This document shows, one piece after another, positions 48,620 to 59,873 of a stretch of 64,000 nt of DNA. The notes beneath the pieces were generated by a model, which made no database searches, was not told the origin of the DNA, and saw only the letters and a list, made by a program, of their open reading frames with translations. Numbering within the stretch: position 1 is the first letter of the stretch; the number at the start of each line of letters is the position of its first letter. Location of the stretch: the NCBI GenBank assembly GCA_944389455.1, contig CALXMK010000006.1, positions 62,001-126,000 of the forward strand, given 5' to 3'. The DNA is from an uncultured Verrucomicrobiota bacterium. GTDB taxonomy: Bacteria; Verrucomicrobiota; Verrucomicrobiia; Limisphaerales; UBA1412. A program made the position numbers and the translations under genes.

Positions 48620-49408
48620 CTAGGTTCTAAAAGGAGCCCATTCAGGTTGATGGTTAAAAGACCAATCGTAATATTCGCGATTCTTCAAATGCAGAGCACA
48701 ATTTTCATCTACAATCACAACTGCATGACGATGCCATTGCAGTGCAGATGCAGTAACCTTTGCACAAAAAGGTCCTTCAATAGCTTCAGCCAAGATTTCT
48801 GCTTTAGATGCTCCTGTTGCCAACATAATACACCTTTGACTATCTAGGATTGTTCCCACCCCCATAGTAATCGCTCTTCTTGGCATCTTATCTGGCCCTC
48901 CAAAATATCCAGCATTCTGACGTATTGTAATAGGGTTAAGTTGTTTAACCCTTGTTCTACTCTGCAATGAAGACATTGGTTCATTAAAACCAATATGGCC
49001 ATCCAATCCTATTCCAAGCAGCTGAATATCAATCCCTCCAGCATTCCAAATAGCTTCCTCATATTCCAAACATTCAGCTTTGAGATCACTTGCCATCCCA
49101 TTTGGGATATGTGTATTCCGCTTGTCTATATTGATATGGTCAAACAAGTGAGTATTCATAAAATAGCGGTAAGAAGCAGGATGATCTCCGTTTAAACCTA
49201 CATATTCATCAAGATTAAAAGTTTTACAAAGAGAAAAGTCCAACCCTTCTTTGTGGTGCATCTCAATCAAGTTAGTATAAACCGGTTCAACGGTTGCACC
49301 CGTCGCTAATCCTAAGACAGCAGCAGGATTTTTCCTAACTTCTGCCGCAATAATCTTTGCGGTAAGCAGAGCCGCAGCCTCTCTTGTTGGCTGAATAATA
49401 ACTTCCAT
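48620..49408 (-). CDS. nagB: glucosamine-6-phosphate deaminase
   Basis: 262 residues. Converts glucosamine 6-phosphate to fructose 6-phosphate and ammonia in amino-sugar use. Motifs: LGLATGATVEPVYTNLI, KTFNLDEYVGLNGDHP (general-base Asp), IQLLGIGLDGHIGFNEP (catalytic Asp and His, then Glu), SRTRVKQLN, and the active-site lid region GPDKMPRRAITMGVGTI. All catalytic residues are present, unlike the paralogue at 55.1 kb. It is monocistronic, with a long leader (about 110 nt) containing a structured element. Confidence 0.95.
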   Translation of the reverse strand: MEVIIQPTREAAALLTAKIIAAEVRKNPAAVLGLATGATVEPVYTNLIEMHHKEGLDFSLCKTFNLDEYVGLNGDHPASYRYFMNTHLFDHINIDKRNTHIPNGMASDLKAECLEYEEAIWNAGGIDIQLLGIGLDGHIGFNEPMSSLQSRTRVKQLNPITIRQNAGYFGGPDKMPRRAITMGVGTILDSQRCIMLATGASKAEILAEAIEGPFCAKVTASALQWHRHAVVIVDENCALHLKNREYYDWSFNHQPEWAPFRT

Positions 49409-50984: not shown

Positions 50985-51013
50985 TATTTTTCAATAACTA
51001 AAGGAGAAATAAA

Positions 51014-52546
51014 TTGAAATTGCATTTGAAATATTATCTTAAAAAGGAAATTATTTTTCATCCTGGAATAAAAAAATACCTGTTTGGGATATGCATTCTA
51101 TCCATCATGCAGTTTCAAAATGCTTCTGGTTCAATATTTGATTTTCTATCTTTGAGTGAAGAAAGCTCTCCTCAGAAACTATCTTCATCCGAAGAATATT
51201 CTGTTCGTTTTACACTAGAACATGATTATCAGGCTTATGGACCTTGGGCTTTCTATCAAGAAGAATATAATGCCGCAGACCAATCCCAATTTACAGTTCC
51301 TATCCTTTTTTCGTACAATAGAATACGAGATATCGATCTAATGGAATTGGATTTTCTCTACCCTATTTTTACAATAGATCGATTCGAAAAAGAATATAGA
51401 CTCCAACTTTTTCAAATTTTAAATTGGGTAGGTGGTCAAAATTCTGAAGGAGAAATAACTAAACGTTATACACTATTCCCTCTCCTTTTTTATCAAGAAT
51501 CTACTATTCCCAATAATAATTATTGGGGAATAATGCCATTCTATGGGAATATACGCAATCGGCTGTGGAGAGATGAAATCAACTATATCATGCTCCCCTT
51601 CTACGTCCAGACTCGCAAAAAAGATATAATCACAAAAAATTATCTTTATCCTTTTGTTCATATGCGTAAAGGTGAGCATCTAAAAGGATGGCAATTTTGG
51701 CCATTTATTGGGCAAGAACAGAAGGAATTCAGCATTTGTACGGATATTTGGGGAGATGAAGTGACCATTCCTGGGCATGACAAAAGATTTTATTTCTGGC
51801 CTATCGGAATTAGTCAAAAAACCGGTATTGGTTCGGAAAATCCGGAAAATTTTTGGGGGATTATCCCTTTTTATGCACAGATGCGTTCTCCAAATCGTGA
51901 CTATTCCGTGGTTCTATGGCCTTTTTTTAATTGGGTAAATGATAGAGGCAGAGCTTACCGGGAATGGAGTATGCCATATCCATTTTTTGTTTTTGCTCGA
52001 GGTGAAGGCAAAACAACTAACCGGGTATTTCCTTTTTTCAGTTTTTCATCCAGTCCGACACAAGAACGGAATTTTATTCTTTGGCCATTCTGGAAAGAAA
52101 CCTCTTTTGATAATCAGATCATACAAACTAAGCGAGAACGAATACTGTTTTATCTTTACTCCGATAAGGAAGAGCATTATACCGAATTTAACAAATCCTC
52201 CTTCAGAACAGATTTGTGGCCTCTGTTCTCGACAATTCTTACAACAGATAATATTTATATCGTAGATATGCTTTCTCCTGTTGCCCCTCTCTTTCATAGC
52301 AATAAATCAGTTGCTAGAAATTGGACTCCTGCTTTTTCAATATGGCATCTGGAGGAAAACAGGGAAACCGGTTCTTTTAAAGAATCATTTTTTTGGAATT
52401 TTTATCGCCATGAACAAAAGCAAAAGCAAAAGAGATGGGGACTTTTTTGGGGACTTATTGAGTATGTTAAAGATCAAGAACATGGAAATTACTGGAGAAT
52501 TTTTTATTCTCCTGATAGGAGTCGGGTTAAAGAATCTCGTAAATAA
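51014..52546 (+). CDS. W/Y-P-F repeat protein preceding mlaEFD, unknown
   Basis: 510 residues, TTG start with a strong AAAGGAG site. A membrane/signal segment (KKYLFGICILSIMQFQNASG, about residues 20-39) precedes a domain built of short repeats centred on x-P-(F/I/L): FLYPIF, LFPLLFY, IMPFY, MLPFY, LYPF, FWPF, FWPI, IIPFY, LWPFF, PYPFF, VFPFF, LWPFW and LWPLF, about 13 copies spaced 15-45 residues apart from residue 114 to 405. Aromatic strands alternating with charged turns suggest an exported beta-structure, possibly an outer-membrane barrel. Its place 30 bp before mlaE suggests a part in lipid transport. No named family is recognised. Confidence 0.65.
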   Translation: MKLHLKYYLKKEIIFHPGIKKYLFGICILSIMQFQNASGSIFDFLSLSEESSPQKLSSSEEYSVRFTLEHDYQAYGPWAFYQEEYNAADQSQFTVPILFSYNRIRDIDLMELDFLYPIFTIDRFEKEYRLQLFQILNWVGGQNSEGEITKRYTLFPLLFYQESTIPNNNYWGIMPFYGNIRNRLWRDEINYIMLPFYVQTRKKDIITKNYLYPFVHMRKGEHLKGWQFWPFIGQEQKEFSICTDIWGDEVTIPGHDKRFYFWPIGISQKTGIGSENPENFWGIIPFYAQMRSPNRDYSVVLWPFFNWVNDRGRAYREWSMPYPFFVFARGEGKTTNRVFPFFSFSSSPTQERNFILWPFWKETSFDNQIIQTKRERILFYLYSDKEEHYTEFNKSSFRTDLWPLFSTILTTDNIYIVDMLSPVAPLFHSNKSVARNWTPAFSIWHLEENRETGSFKESFFWNFYRHEQKQKQKRWGLFWGLIEYVKDQEHGNYWRIFYSPDRSRVKESRK

Positions 52547-52576
52547 TATAATCACAACATAAATGAGGGTTATCTT

Positions 52577-53317
52577 ATGTTCAAAAACCTGGGAGAAATA
52601 ATCATACTATTTTATAAAACCATACTTGAGTTAAAAAAAATTCCAACTCAATTACCTAAAATTCTTTTTTTTCTTTTTGAAATGGGCAATGCCAGTCTAC
52701 TTATGGCTGGAATTGTCTCTATCTTTATGGGAGGGATTCTGGCTTTGCAAATGGCTCCACAAATGGCTCAGCATGGAATAACCGGAGTTGTCGGAGGAAT
52801 CATCGGCTTGGCAATGGCTAAGGAACTATCTCCTGTGCTAATGGCTATTTTAATCATTGGCAGAGTCGGTTCTGCAATGACTGCCGAAATCGGTTCTATG
52901 AAAGTTTATAACGAGATAGATGCTCTGCAGACAATGAATATTAACCCTATTCGTTTTCTAGTTCTCCCCAGAATGACTGCTATTGGCATCGTACTGCCAA
53001 TGCTCACTTTATTCTCCATGCTTGTTGGTTGGATAGGAGGTTTAGCGGTAAGCTATTTTAATCAAACAGCGGCTATTACCATCGAAGGATACTTTGAGAG
53101 TTTGGAATCTAATGTAAATGTCTCTGATATTTTAGAAGGATTAGTGAAGAGTTTTATTTTCGCTTTAAGCATTGGAATTATATCCTGTCATCAAGGATTG
53201 ATAACTCGAGGAGGTCCTCGTGGTATTGGGCGCAGTGTAACTAAATCCGTTGTAAATTCCATCGTTGCCATAATGATTCTTGATTATATTATAACCCGTT
53301 TCATTCTATTTATCTGA
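52577..53317 (+). CDS. mlaE: MlaE family ABC transporter permease
   Basis: 246 residues, with GAGGG before the ATG. Five or six hydrophobic segments of the MlaE/YrbE permease family: FMGGILALQMAPQMAQHGIT, MAKELSPVLMAILIIGRVGS (conserved E-L-x-P-V-L), AEIGSMKVYNEIDALQTMNI (the coupling-helix motif for MlaF), and SCHQGLITRGGPRGIGRSVT at the C-terminus. Inner-membrane part of the MCE phospholipid transporter that keeps outer-membrane lipid asymmetry. The stop overlaps the mlaF start by one base. Confidence 0.94.
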   Translation: MFKNLGEIIILFYKTILELKKIPTQLPKILFFLFEMGNASLLMAGIVSIFMGGILALQMAPQMAQHGITGVVGGIIGLAMAKELSPVLMAILIIGRVGSAMTAEIGSMKVYNEIDALQTMNINPIRFLVLPRMTAIGIVLPMLTLFSMLVGWIGGLAVSYFNQTAAITIEGYFESLESNVNVSDILEGLVKSFIFALSIGIISCHQGLITRGGPRGIGRSVTKSVVNSIVAIMILDYIITRFILFI

Positions 53318-54117
53318 TGAGTATATCCGACCGTAAATACCCTGCTATCAGCATTAATGTCAATCGGCTTTCAAAGTCTTTTGATGGGATCCCAATTTTG
53401 AGAAATATCTCATTTAATGTCCAACCTGGAGAAATTTTTGTTTTAATGGGTCCTAGCGGATCCGGAAAAACCGTTCTTTTAAGACACTTAATTGGGTTGC
53501 TGACACCGGATCAAGGAGAAATTTCTATCGATGGCCAACATCCAGGAACTCCAGATTTCTTTGACCACATTCCAATGGCAATGGTTTTTCAAAACGGAGG
53601 TCTTCTTAATTCCCTCTCTGTTGAAGAAAATGTTGGCCTTTATCTCAAAGAACATCGGTTAAAACCTCCCGCACAAATCAAATCTATCGTTGGAAAAGAA
53701 TTAACTAAATTAAATCTTACCGAAGAAGACGCGCGTAAATATCCGTACGAACTTTCCGGAGGAATGAAAAAAAGGGTTGCCATCGCAAGAGCTATAGTAA
53801 TGGAACCTAAAGTCGTTCTTTATGATGAACCAACCTCTGAGTTAGATCCAGTTGTCGCTAAGACTGTTGTTGATGAAATTCGCCGCATTCATCAGGAAGA
53901 AGGACAAACCACTGTAATTGTAACCCATGATCGAGAATTAGCATTTGAAATAGCAGATCATATTGCCATTTTGATTGATGGGACCTTACTTAAAATGGGA
54001 ACCACTATGGAAATTAAAGAAATTCTTTCTCAAGCTATTCCTAAAGAGAATAAAAATCTAACAAAAGTAAAAAATTTTTTAACAATTAATTATAAAAGCA
54101 TTTATAAAGGAGAATAA
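53317..54117 (+). CDS. mlaF: MlaF-type ABC transporter ATPase
   Basis: 266 residues. Walker A LMGPSGSGKTVLLRHLIG, Q-loop MVFQNGGLLNSLSVEENV, signature YELSGGMKKRVAIARAI, Walker B VVLYDEPTSELDPVVA, H-loop IVTHDRELAF. The S-G-G-M-x-K-R signature and F-Q-x-G-x-L-L-N-S-L are characteristic of MlaF, the ATPase of the MCE lipid transporter. Cytosolic, bound to MlaE. Starts in the mlaE stop (TGATG) and is followed after 2 bp by mlaD with a strong AAAGGAG site. Confidence 0.95.
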   Translation: MSISDRKYPAISINVNRLSKSFDGIPILRNISFNVQPGEIFVLMGPSGSGKTVLLRHLIGLLTPDQGEISIDGQHPGTPDFFDHIPMAMVFQNGGLLNSLSVEENVGLYLKEHRLKPPAQIKSIVGKELTKLNLTEEDARKYPYELSGGMKKRVAIARAIVMEPKVVLYDEPTSELDPVVAKTVVDEIRRIHQEEGQTTVIVTHDRELAFEIADHIAILIDGTLLKMGTTMEIKEILSQAIPKENKNLTKVKNFLTINYKSIYKGE

Positions 54118-54119
54118 CA

Positions 54120-55100
54120 ATGAATATGAATAAATTAGAAGTTCGCTTAGGTGTTTTTTTCCTCCTTATTTTATTGGTAGGAGTAATGATGATGGAACTC
54201 ATTGGTGCACTAGCACCTCTTAAATCTGGACTAAATATTCAAACTCAGTTTAAAAATGTTCTTGATCTGAAAAAAGGAGATCCTGTTCGCATAGCAGGTG
54301 TGCAAGTTGGAAGTGTCCGAGATATAAAACTAAAGGATAAGTCGGTTCTGGTGACAATGAAAATTAAACATAACACCGGAATTACAACTGATAGTACCGC
54401 AACTATTAAATTTCTCGGCATGATGGGACAAAACTACATTAATATTGATTTTGCGGAAACAGGAATGCCTATTTATGATGGAGCAATGCTTCTAAGTCAG
54501 GAACAGCCCGATTTAAGTATGCTCATGACTAAACTAGACAATGTGGTCAGCGGAATTGATGAACTAACACGGAATTTCAGCTCTGATTCAATAAGTTCCA
54601 TGATGATGCCTATAACCGATTTTATTAAAGAAAACAAAGACTCCCTCTCCTCAATTGGCCCAATTCTGGTAAATGTAAGAAATATTACTTCTGCCATTGC
54701 CAATGGCGAAGGCAGCATAGGTAAGATGATTCAAGAACCATCACTTTACACATCCGCGATGGGATCACTTACTAATCTGGAGGTTACTCTTCAAAATGCT
54801 CAGTCTATTGCCTCTCAAGCTAAATGGATTCTAAATGATGTGCAGCAAGGTCGTGGTTCTATTGGAAAAATCCTCACTGAGGATTCTGTTTATGTTGAAA
54901 TGAGAGACTCTCTCGCTAATTTAAGGGAAATCCTTCAAAAGGTTAATTCCGGCCGTGGTACAGCTGGAAAAATTGTTAACGATGCCGCACTTTACCAAAA
55001 TGCTAAACTTACAATGCAAAAATTAGATATGGCTGCCGAAGGTTTAGAAGATCAAGGTCCTATTTCTGTAATTGGTTTAGCCGTTGGCTCTCTCTTTTAA
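54120..55100 (+). CDS. mlaD: MCE-domain substrate-binding protein (MlaD)
   Basis: 326 residues. N-terminal membrane helix (VRLGVFFLLILLVGVMMMEL), then the MCE domain (about residues 35-120: TQFKNVLDLKKGDPVRIAGV, VGSVRDIKLKDKSVLVTMKI, GMMGQNYINIDFAETG). A long C-terminal region of coiled-coil helices contains repeated G-x-G-(S/T)-(I/A)-G-K-I/M motifs (GEGSIGKMI, GRGSIGKIL, GRGTAGKIV). Such extended tails form periplasmic needles or tubes in PqiB/YebT-like MCE proteins. No MlaB/MlaC/MlaA gene follows, so outer components may be elsewhere or replaced by the repeat protein upstream. Confidence 0.92.
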   Translation: MNMNKLEVRLGVFFLLILLVGVMMMELIGALAPLKSGLNIQTQFKNVLDLKKGDPVRIAGVQVGSVRDIKLKDKSVLVTMKIKHNTGITTDSTATIKFLGMMGQNYINIDFAETGMPIYDGAMLLSQEQPDLSMLMTKLDNVVSGIDELTRNFSSDSISSMMMPITDFIKENKDSLSSIGPILVNVRNITSAIANGEGSIGKMIQEPSLYTSAMGSLTNLEVTLQNAQSIASQAKWILNDVQQGRGSIGKILTEDSVYVEMRDSLANLREILQKVNSGRGTAGKIVNDAALYQNAKLTMQKLDMAAEGLEDQGPISVIGLAVGSLF

Positions 55101-55120
55101 TCGTATTGAAAAGCCGAAAT

Positions 55121-55840
55121 ATGAATCTATTTATTTTTGAAACTCAGGATGCGCTGGCTGAGGCTGCGGCAACTCTGTGGACAAAAAAAATTTGGGATAA
55201 AACTGATATGCGTATATGCCTTGCGGCGGGCAATACACCTATTCCTATTTATCAGAAGATGATAGATTATTATCATCAAGGTCAGGTCTGTATGAGAGAT
55301 ATTGAAGCTTTTCAACTTAATGAATTCGGTTCTTTGCAATCTTTTCATTCTGGATTTACACAGAATCTAATTCGAGAATGTTTGCTCAACTGGGTTGATT
55401 TTCCTGCAGGGCACTTCCAATGTATAAATCTTGAAGCAAAAGACCTAGATCTAGAGATAGCACGTTATGACTCCCTATTTGATCAGCCAATGGATTTGAC
55501 CATTTTAGGAGTAGGAACAAATGGACAAATAGGGATGAATGAACCTGGCTCTCTGTCTGATTCTCCTACAAGAAAGATAAATCTTACACAACCCTCAATC
55601 CAAGCTGCTCGCTATTATCTAAAAGATCAAAATCTTCCTACTTGGGGAATCACTTTAGGAATGAATCGAATCCTTCAATCTAAAGAAATATGGCTTCTTG
55701 CAACAGGTAAATACAAAGCGGGCGTTCTTAAACGAATAGTCTCTGAACCACCATCAGCCGTGACTCCTGCTTCTTGGCTATGCAACCATCCTAACTTTTC
55801 AATTTTCGCAGATCGTGAAGCTTCCGCTCAACTATTTTGA
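55121..55840 (+). CDS. NagB-like protein lacking catalytic residues (probable pseudoenzyme)
   Basis: 239 residues from ATG 55121; a TTG at 55106 would add five. The fold and several motifs are those of glucosamine-6-phosphate deaminase: ICLAAGNTPIPIYQKMI (phosphate loop), QLNEFGSLQ, LTILGVGTNGQIGMNEPGS, WGITLGMNRIL, and WLLATGKYKAGVLKRIV. Compared with the true NagB in this window (NLDEYVG; GLDGHIGFNEP) the base Asp is Asn, the second Asp is Asn and the catalytic His is Gln; only the Glu remains. It also does not fit 6-phosphogluconolactonase. A sugar-phosphate-binding sensor or a changed activity is possible. Follows mlaD by 20 bp and precedes rnhC by 16 bp. Confidence 0.8.
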   Translation: MNLFIFETQDALAEAAATLWTKKIWDKTDMRICLAAGNTPIPIYQKMIDYYHQGQVCMRDIEAFQLNEFGSLQSFHSGFTQNLIRECLLNWVDFPAGHFQCINLEAKDLDLEIARYDSLFDQPMDLTILGVGTNGQIGMNEPGSLSDSPTRKINLTQPSIQAARYYLKDQNLPTWGITLGMNRILQSKEIWLLATGKYKAGVLKRIVSEPPSAVTPASWLCNHPNFSIFADREASAQLF

Positions 55841-58250: not shown

Positions 58251-59873
58251 TTACCGAGTATCGTATAGTGGATGCCATTCTGGAGCCCAGCTTAGCGTAT
58301 GCTCGCCCACGGTCTGACGGATGCACTGTCCGTCGTGGCCGGGACGTTCTACAAGTTCGAAACATCCGATAATGTCAGCCGTGTAGTGAGGCAGATAGCC
58401 CCACTTCGAGGCTTGACCGTAGCTGTCAAAATCATCGGCATAAGGTATCGGGAAGGGCTTTGAGTCGGGTATTACGGAGAACGAGCCTTTCTGTTGTCCA
58501 GTGGTTGTTGAGAACGAATACACAGCATCGGGCTTAAGCGTTATATTGTATGCGTCATCTTTCAGGGGGATGTCTTCCAAACGGACAAACTGCTGCTTAG
58601 CATCGCTGTACCATACGCACAGGCTTCCATCCTTCAGTCCACCATCCGGTATTACCCTTACCGTCTGTGTCTTCCTTGCTTCTTTGGTCTCAACGATTAT
58701 GCTATAATCGCCCGTCTGCGGATTTCTCAGGGTCACCATAGAGCCTCCTCCCTTGAGAACCATGCAACCGTCATCCACATAGTGCCAACCTATTTGTGTG
58801 AACTGGCCGTAATGGGCATAGCCCCAAAGGGCCTCGCGTACCTCATAGTGACCGCTCCACGGTTCGCGTGCGAGTACCGTGGTGGGGTCGCAGCTGTACG
58901 GTTCGAGCGGATATACGCCGGCTATGTCGTACCAGTTGATTATCCTGGTGGCACCGCTCACTATGTAGTTGTCATTGAATGCCTTGACGATGCTTATAAG
59001 ACAGTCAAAGCCTTTTTTGTATATATGCTCCTCGGTATTCCATATCGGTTTGCCCATTGCTTCCGCCATGGCCCGCTGTTCTTTGGTCATGTGTATTTCA
59101 CTGAACGTGTGGGCACTGACGGCGTAAAGGGCGTCGCGCAGCTCATTGTCGGCCTGCATGTCCTTAAGGAAGTCCATCTTGGATTTTCCCCAGTTGTCAA
59201 AGCCGTGTAGCTTGACGTTTTTAAAGCCGCGGTTGTCCATTGTTCGGCGGAGCACCTTGGCAAAGTCGTAGTTACAGCCCCTCTCATTGTGGCAGCCTAT
59301 AGCGTCGAGCTCAATGCCGTAGATGCAACGAAGGCCGTAGAGCCAAGCCACATAATAGTCGGCCATGTCCTGCGACCAGTAATGCTTCACCCATGCCGGC
59401 GCGCTCCAGGCAGTAGCGTCAAGCGACAGCAGAGGATTGCGCTTCTTGGCCTCGCGCAGCACCCACCACATGTAACCACGGCTGTAATTATCATCGCCTT
59501 TGTAATGGCTATGCGCCGGCATGGAGCCTTGCGTTGAATTGCCGTCGCCGGGGATCTCTACAAGCAGCACGCTGACGGAACCGCCGAACATGGGTTTGTA
59601 CACCAAATCCATTATCTGCGAGCGTTGTGGCTCGGGATAGTCTTTCAGCAAGACTGACGTAGCTCCACCACCATTGACTAACCCTATTCCGTCAAAACGC
59701 TTGCCGGAAGAGTCTGCGCTAAGTCTGACTGTCTGGGCTTTGATCGCAGCTTCAATGACCGACTCGCCGATATTGCCGCCGTTGATCTCCGTTCCAGTAA
59801 CCCTTTCCTGGGCAAAGAGATTGGCGTTAATACAGAGCGAAATCAATAGAATAAAAAGCTTTTTCATTGGCAT
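58251..59873 (-). CDS. GH59 galactocerebrosidase-like glycosidase, truncated (horizontally acquired)
   Basis: 540 residues open, but missing the C-terminal lectin-like domain through a frameshift. Signal peptide KKLFILLISLCINANLFAQ is of the Bacteroidetes type. The TIM barrel has FDGIGLVNGGGATSVLLKDY, FGGSVSVLLVEIPGDGNSTQ, ATAWSAPAWVKHYWSQDM, the acid/base Glu in IGCHNERGCNYDF, and the nucleophile Glu in KPIWNTEEHIYKKG, then IVSGATRIINWYDIAGVYPL. A beta domain ends near DDFDSYGQ. GH59 enzymes release galactose from galactosides. The catalytic barrel is complete; whether the truncated product folds is unknown. Base composition and codon use differ clearly from the neighbours. Confidence 0.82.
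   Translation of the reverse strand: MPMKKLFILLISLCINANLFAQERVTGTEINGGNIGESVIEAAIKAQTVRLSADSSGKRFDGIGLVNGGGATSVLLKDYPEPQRSQIMDLVYKPMFGGSVSVLLVEIPGDGNSTQGSMPAHSHYKGDDNYSRGYMWWVLREAKKRNPLLSLDATAWSAPAWVKHYWSQDMADYYVAWLYGLRCIYGIELDAIGCHNERGCNYDFAKVLRRTMDNRGFKNVKLHGFDNWGKSKMDFLKDMQADNELRDALYAVSAHTFSEIHMTKEQRAMAEAMGKPIWNTEEHIYKKGFDCLISIVKAFNDNYIVSGATRIINWYDIAGVYPLEPYSCDPTTVLAREPWSGHYEVREALWGYAHYGQFTQIGWHYVDDGCMVLKGGGSMVTLRNPQTGDYSIIVETKEARKTQTVRVIPDGGLKDGSLCVWYSDAKQQFVRLEDIPLKDDAYNITLKPDAVYSFSTTTGQQKGSFSVIPDSKPFPIPYADDFDSYGQASKWGYLPHYTADIIGCFELVERPGHDGQCIRQTVGEHTLSWAPEWHPLYDTR

Follow-up and report, generated by a model that had tools for sequence, protein, structure and literature searches.

In bacteria that have neither MlaA nor MlaC, the route that lipids take between the MlaEFD complex and the outer membrane is an open question. 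Previous work has indicated that the MlaD proteins of the PVC group (Planctomycetes, Verrucomicrobia and Chlamydiae) are without the outer-membrane barrel found elsewhere (PMC10665443), and the same 2023 paper, on Veillonella, asks whether non-homologous or unidentified proteins replace the missing parts. The protein family described here, which we call the ribbon family, addresses this question and offers a concrete candidate, with conservation across the phylum, an unusual predicted fold and a candidate contact site at the C-terminal tip of MlaD. Its member in the window (the whole stretch of 64,000 nucleotides that was analysed) is encoded first in a row of four plus-strand genes, followed by mlaE, mlaF and mlaD. 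We propose, with a probability of roughly 0.55, that it serves a single MCE-type (MlaEFD-like) lipid transporter as a dedicated envelope subunit, docking with the transporter tip near the outer membrane and replacing MlaA and MlaC. The operon comprises the following features.

51000..51006, plus strand: ribosome-binding site AAAGGAG, read in the sequence, 7 nt upstream of the TTG start
51014..52546, plus strand: gene of the W/F-P-F repeat (ribbon) protein, 510 aa, TTG start, first in the transporter operon
52577..53317, plus strand: mlaE, MCE transporter permease (PF02405, E 1.3e-67, 228 bits; placed in the MlaE tree)
53317..54117, plus strand: mlaF, transporter ATPase (PF00005, E 2.9e-33, 115.8 bits)
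54120..55100, plus strand: mlaD, MCE protein with an N-terminal membrane helix and a long tail (PF02470, E 3.1e-21, 75.9 bits)

The MlaE permease, the adjoining ABC ATPase and the MCE domain with its N-terminal membrane helix identify an MCE/Mla-type lipid ABC transporter. The initial annotation had placed the repeat-protein gene 30 bp before mlaE, behind a strong ribosome site and in an operon lacking mlaA, mlaB and mlaC, and all of this holds: the reading frame ends at 52546 and mlaE begins at 52577, AAAGGAG precedes the TTG start, and inspection of the operon found none of the three genes adjoining it. The mlaE and mlaF genes overlap by 1 base, and 2 bp separate mlaF from mlaD. MlaA was also not found anywhere in the source genome with the PF04333 profile, which detects it in only 6 of 40 relatives. 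The open frames that contain the MlaA domains of these six (G013, G015, G017, G019, G027 and G038) span 665-748 aa, much more than E. coli MlaA, and a fusion is possible. Upstream, a phenylacetate-CoA-ligase-like gene lies 29 bp from the ribbon-protein gene, and scans of the upstream sequence for promoter patterns found promoter-like sites no commoner than in shuffled sequence. Glucosamine-6-phosphate isomerase-like genes stand on both sides of the operon, at 48620-49408 (minus strand) and at 55106-55840 (plus strand), the latter divergent and beginning 5 bp after mlaD. Further along the window, 58251-59873 (minus strand) encodes a galactocerebrosidase-like protein of glycosyl hydrolase family 59 (PF02057, E 1e-80); the G+C content there is about 50%, against 37% in the surroundings, and the gene looks recently acquired.

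The distribution of the family and the neighbourhood of its genes carry most of the argument. Homologues of the ribbon protein are present in 52 of 58 relatives (35 of the 36 of good quality), in 51 of 189 genomes of the class, other orders included, and in 140 of 289 genomes of other Verrucomicrobiota classes (E 1e-3, a dozen of them weak), in a survey that covered the phylum Verrucomicrobiota, many of whose genomes are probably incomplete metagenome-assembled genomes. A contig scan with the window protein matched one locus, in a Verrucomicrobiota metagenome-assembled genome, and a search of plasmid and phage records yielded no homologue. The ribbon gene lies directly upstream of mlaE-mlaF(-mlaD) on the same strand at 27 of 30 loci of its own order, and the same arrangement was found at 18/18 loci elsewhere in the class and at 34 of 40 in other classes; many of these genes overlap the mlaE operon by 4 bases, stop to start. 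The neighbourhood survey had been set beforehand as the test that could refute a partnership with the MCE transporter, and it links 79 of 88 loci to MCE genes. Several unlinked loci are contig ends or second copies; the six exceptions of other classes include one locus truncated by a contig end (L110), one second copy (L109) and two that encode much longer proteins (L121 and L125). These last two are very long frames with many W-P-F motifs, away from mlaEFD (L121 3099-6422, 1107 aa; L125 690-6224, 1844 aa), and may point to a wider family of such ribbons. The proposal that the ribbon protein is a new partner, dedicated to an MCE transporter, is strongly supported by the gene order, and our search of the open-access literature found no paper describing it.

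The partnership concerns one type of transporter only. Three MCE operons are present in the source genome and only that at 51014-55100 carries the ribbon protein. The second (L129 3498-6635; contig 1, about 140-143 kb) is without it and is preceded by a gene for an Rce1/CAAX-protease-like membrane protein. The third (L130 3288-6970; contig 6, about 23.3-27.0 kb) consists of the E, F and D genes together with a gene for a lipoprotein-like protein with TPRs, which may be a further MCE partner that has gone unrecognised. Across the class, MlaE occurs in 179 of 189 genomes, against 51 of 189 for the ribbon protein. A quick MlaE tree accommodates its 91 partner-linked sequences with a single label change, compared with 33 when the labels are shuffled, and two large partner-linked clades have support values of 100 and 99. 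We do not claim monophyly of all partner-linked MlaEs, as the branch joining the two clades has a support of 3.

The MlaD encoded beside the ribbon protein is itself of a special type, with the following features.

54231..54452, plus strand: MCE domain of MlaD, residues 38-111 (PF02470)
54705..54725, plus strand: MlaD repeat 1, GEGSIGK (alignment A4)
54849..54869, plus strand: MlaD repeat 2, GRGSIGK (alignment A4)
54951..54971, plus strand: MlaD repeat 3, GRGTAGK (alignment A4)
55059..55097, plus strand: uncharged hydrophobic C-terminal MlaD tip PISVIGLAVGSLF, conserved, candidate docking element (family comparison)

As read from the sequence, the C terminus of MlaD consists of helical repeats followed by a 13-residue tip that runs up to the stop codon, and a fused C-terminal barrel of about ten strands was not seen. 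An unusually long tail with three G-x-G-S/T-x-G repeats had been noted at the outset; the repeats are present, but the length is not special, since long tails are the rule among MlaD proteins, occurring in 85% of homologues (PMC10665443). GEGTLGK-type repeats average 2.6 per partner-linked MlaD against 0.15 in other MlaDs, and the last residue is F or L in 52/52 partner-linked MlaDs against 1 of 27 others. At the level of sequence, it is the repeats and the tip, rather than the length of the tail, that mark this type of MlaD. A profile (A5) covering the final 110 residues, with a tail called where the match reached the end of the model, was positive in all 51 genomes with the ribbon protein and in none of the 138 without it in the class sample of 189 genomes; the scores were at least 61 bits with the partner and at most 39 bits without, and the weight of this result rests on that gap and not on a literal reading of the Fisher p-value, as the criterion was chosen after the list had been inspected and the genomes are not independent. 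In other classes, 99 genomes have both the ribbon protein and the MlaD tail, 2 the partner only and 4 the tail only. Two of these four are explained, since both G316, where the tail match lies at contig base 16, and G314 end at a contig edge just upstream. In three genomes (G013, G016 and G031) the ribbon protein is unlinked, yet the special MlaD is encoded elsewhere in the genome, and in a further one (G006) no ribbon protein was found and the sole match stops short of the tail. Comparison of the genomes shows that the ribbon protein is inherited, linked and lost together with one MlaEFD and its special MlaD tail.

The ribbon protein itself, whose gene is single copy in the source genome, has no sequence match in Pfam, NCBIfam or the PDB, alone or as a family; a PDB search with a profile of 99 family members and a Pfam search of 34 members, the MORN model included, likewise found no match. 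Two regions can be delimited.

51014..51148, plus strand: N-terminal hydrophobic export signal region, residues 1 to ~45 (family-wide hydrophobic segment; alignment A1)
51221..52501, plus strand: predicted single-layer beta ribbon, residues 70-496, 43 short strands (AlphaFold2; motif and hydrophobicity profile)

About 13 x-P-F/I/L motifs had been reported in the initial annotation. We counted 15 hydrophobic-P-hydrophobic motifs, more than in any of 20,000 shuffles of the sequence (mean 4.2, maximum 13), and 10 of the stricter form W/Y/F-P-F/L/I/V (shuffle mean 1.5, maximum 8). The motif prolines are conserved in a phylum-wide alignment of 99 homologues, in which about 17 are near-invariant (9 invariant and about 8 nearly so) and the consensus is L-[W/F/Y]-P-[F/L]-[Y/F]. 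The protein had also been described as signal-bearing, which applies well to the family, as a simple heuristic finds an N-terminal hydrophobic segment and a small-x-small site in 95 of 97 homologues, and less well to the window protein, whose own signal is less typical, with a long n-region, and which has no lipobox. Clear lipid-anchor signals were found in three relatives, one (L114) in an mlaEFD operon and two (L109 and L124) standing alone, which indicates that the family includes some lipoproteins; L109 and L124 may be paralogues, as they do not adjoin mlaEFD. The ribbon protein is likely located in the periplasm or the outer membrane, because of the export-type N terminus of 95/97 homologues and the lipid-anchor motifs of the three relatives.

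The expectation that the protein is beta-structured is borne out by AlphaFold2, which models an all-beta ribbon. The model was built from 99 sequences (mean pLDDT 92.8, pTM 0.81) and replaced an earlier, weaker one from 31 sequences (pTM 0.58). Its 43 strands average 5.9 residues in length, the longest having 8; every second turn holds one of the conserved proline motifs, with hydrophobic residues at -2, -1, +1 and +2, and the opposite turns are charged. The model is best read as a long beta ribbon of a single layer, one edge carrying about 17 aromatic-proline turns and the other polar or charged. It partly matches known single-layer sheets, namely those of the CPAP G-box, MORN and OspA (Z of about 10-11 across roughly 150 residues), and a Foldseek comparison with viral models gave partial MORN-type and tail-fibre matches only. 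Whole-chain matches to beta-propellers (LRP, IFT and teneurin) were dismissed, with rmsd above 20 and TM below 0.2.

Such a structure could serve lipid transport in another way. The ribbon might coil or pair and thereby line a hydrophobic groove or tunnel with its aromatic-proline edge, extending the MlaD conduit, with no dock at the outer membrane. The strong segregation of the hydrophobic and charged edges, with no barrel-type hydrophobic face pattern, is consistent with this, as are the defined overall shape implied by the pTM of 0.81 and a partial match to the beta belt of apolipoprotein B (Z 8.6, 228 residues, rmsd 6.7). However, the apolipoprotein B match is middling, and direct-coupling analysis of the 99 sequences for ring closure and long-range strand contacts yielded gap-dominated noise at low depth and no usable long-range contacts, and we consider this arrangement unlikely. 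That the protein is an assembly factor, stabiliser or regulator of the MCE complex, making no contact with lipid, appears more doubtful still. Co-occurrence alone does not separate a structural subunit from an assembly factor, and mycobacterial Mce1 has a known accessory regulator (PMC10517005), but a stoichiometric structural role is suggested by the matching MlaD tip and by the near-invariance of the aromatic-proline turns throughout the phylum. An outer-membrane beta-barrel pore of the classical kind, terminating the MCE conduit as the initial annotation had imagined, is disfavoured and very improbable: although the protein is all-beta and exported, and in some relatives the chain finishes precisely with an aromatic strand, as in barrel proteins, the 43 predicted strands are too short to span a membrane, prolines fall in every second turn, an alternating pattern is absent, and the barrels among the structural matches score lower or align at high rmsd (AlgE, Z 8.7, rmsd 16.5).

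We therefore return to the dedicated envelope subunit as the preferred reading, for which we propose a series of linked steps. MlaE and MlaF would reside in the inner membrane, where MlaEF would power lipid movement, and an MlaD hexamer would bridge the periplasm via its helical tail of GEGTLGK repeats. The hydrophobic C-terminal tip of MlaD would dock onto the ribbon protein. The latter would lie at the inner face of the outer membrane or close to it, attached through its aromatic edge or, as in a few relatives, through a lipid anchor. There, the ribbon protein would pass phospholipids to or from the outer membrane, in place of MlaA and MlaC. We infer both the docking of MlaD and the outer-membrane placement, and the docking mechanism fits the absence of MlaA and the published lack of a barrel in PVC-group MlaDs (PMC10665443). 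The ribbon protein is a good candidate, and a plausible one, for the outer-membrane end that the transporter otherwise lacks. In a bolder version, to which we give somewhat less than even odds, it represents a structural class new among MCE partners, a giant beta ribbon of a single layer that takes the tip of the MlaD needle and whose aromatic-proline edge enters the inner leaflet of the outer membrane or lines a lipid groove. It would then form a lipid bridge across the envelope, specific to the phylum, which has replaced MlaA/MlaC as well as the MlaD-fused barrel.

Comparison with known systems places this arrangement beside several others. The likeness to MORN repeats, the CPAP G-box and OspA sheets is confined to a partial structural match of the model; in contrast to these, the ribbon protein is an exported bacterial protein with W-P-F turns and about 43 strands per chain, and is without a MORN sequence match. 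The E. coli Mla system shares the MlaE, MlaF and MlaD families, whereas here MlaA is missing and neither it nor a shuttle protein is encoded in the operon. As in PqiABC, an MCE needle would be combined with a separate envelope protein at the outer-membrane end; however, PqiC is an outer-membrane lipoprotein forming an octameric toroid (PMC10897342), whereas the ribbon protein is long and mostly non-lipidated, and no sequence relation between the two was found. The MlaEFD of Veillonella parvula (PMC10665443) resembles the present system in its MlaEFD core without MlaA and MlaC, its long helical MlaD tail and its need for an outer-membrane end. In V. parvula that end is an outer-membrane barrel fused to MlaD, whereas here MlaD finishes in a short hydrophobic tip with no barrel, and the operon opens with the gene of an exported beta protein separate from MlaD.
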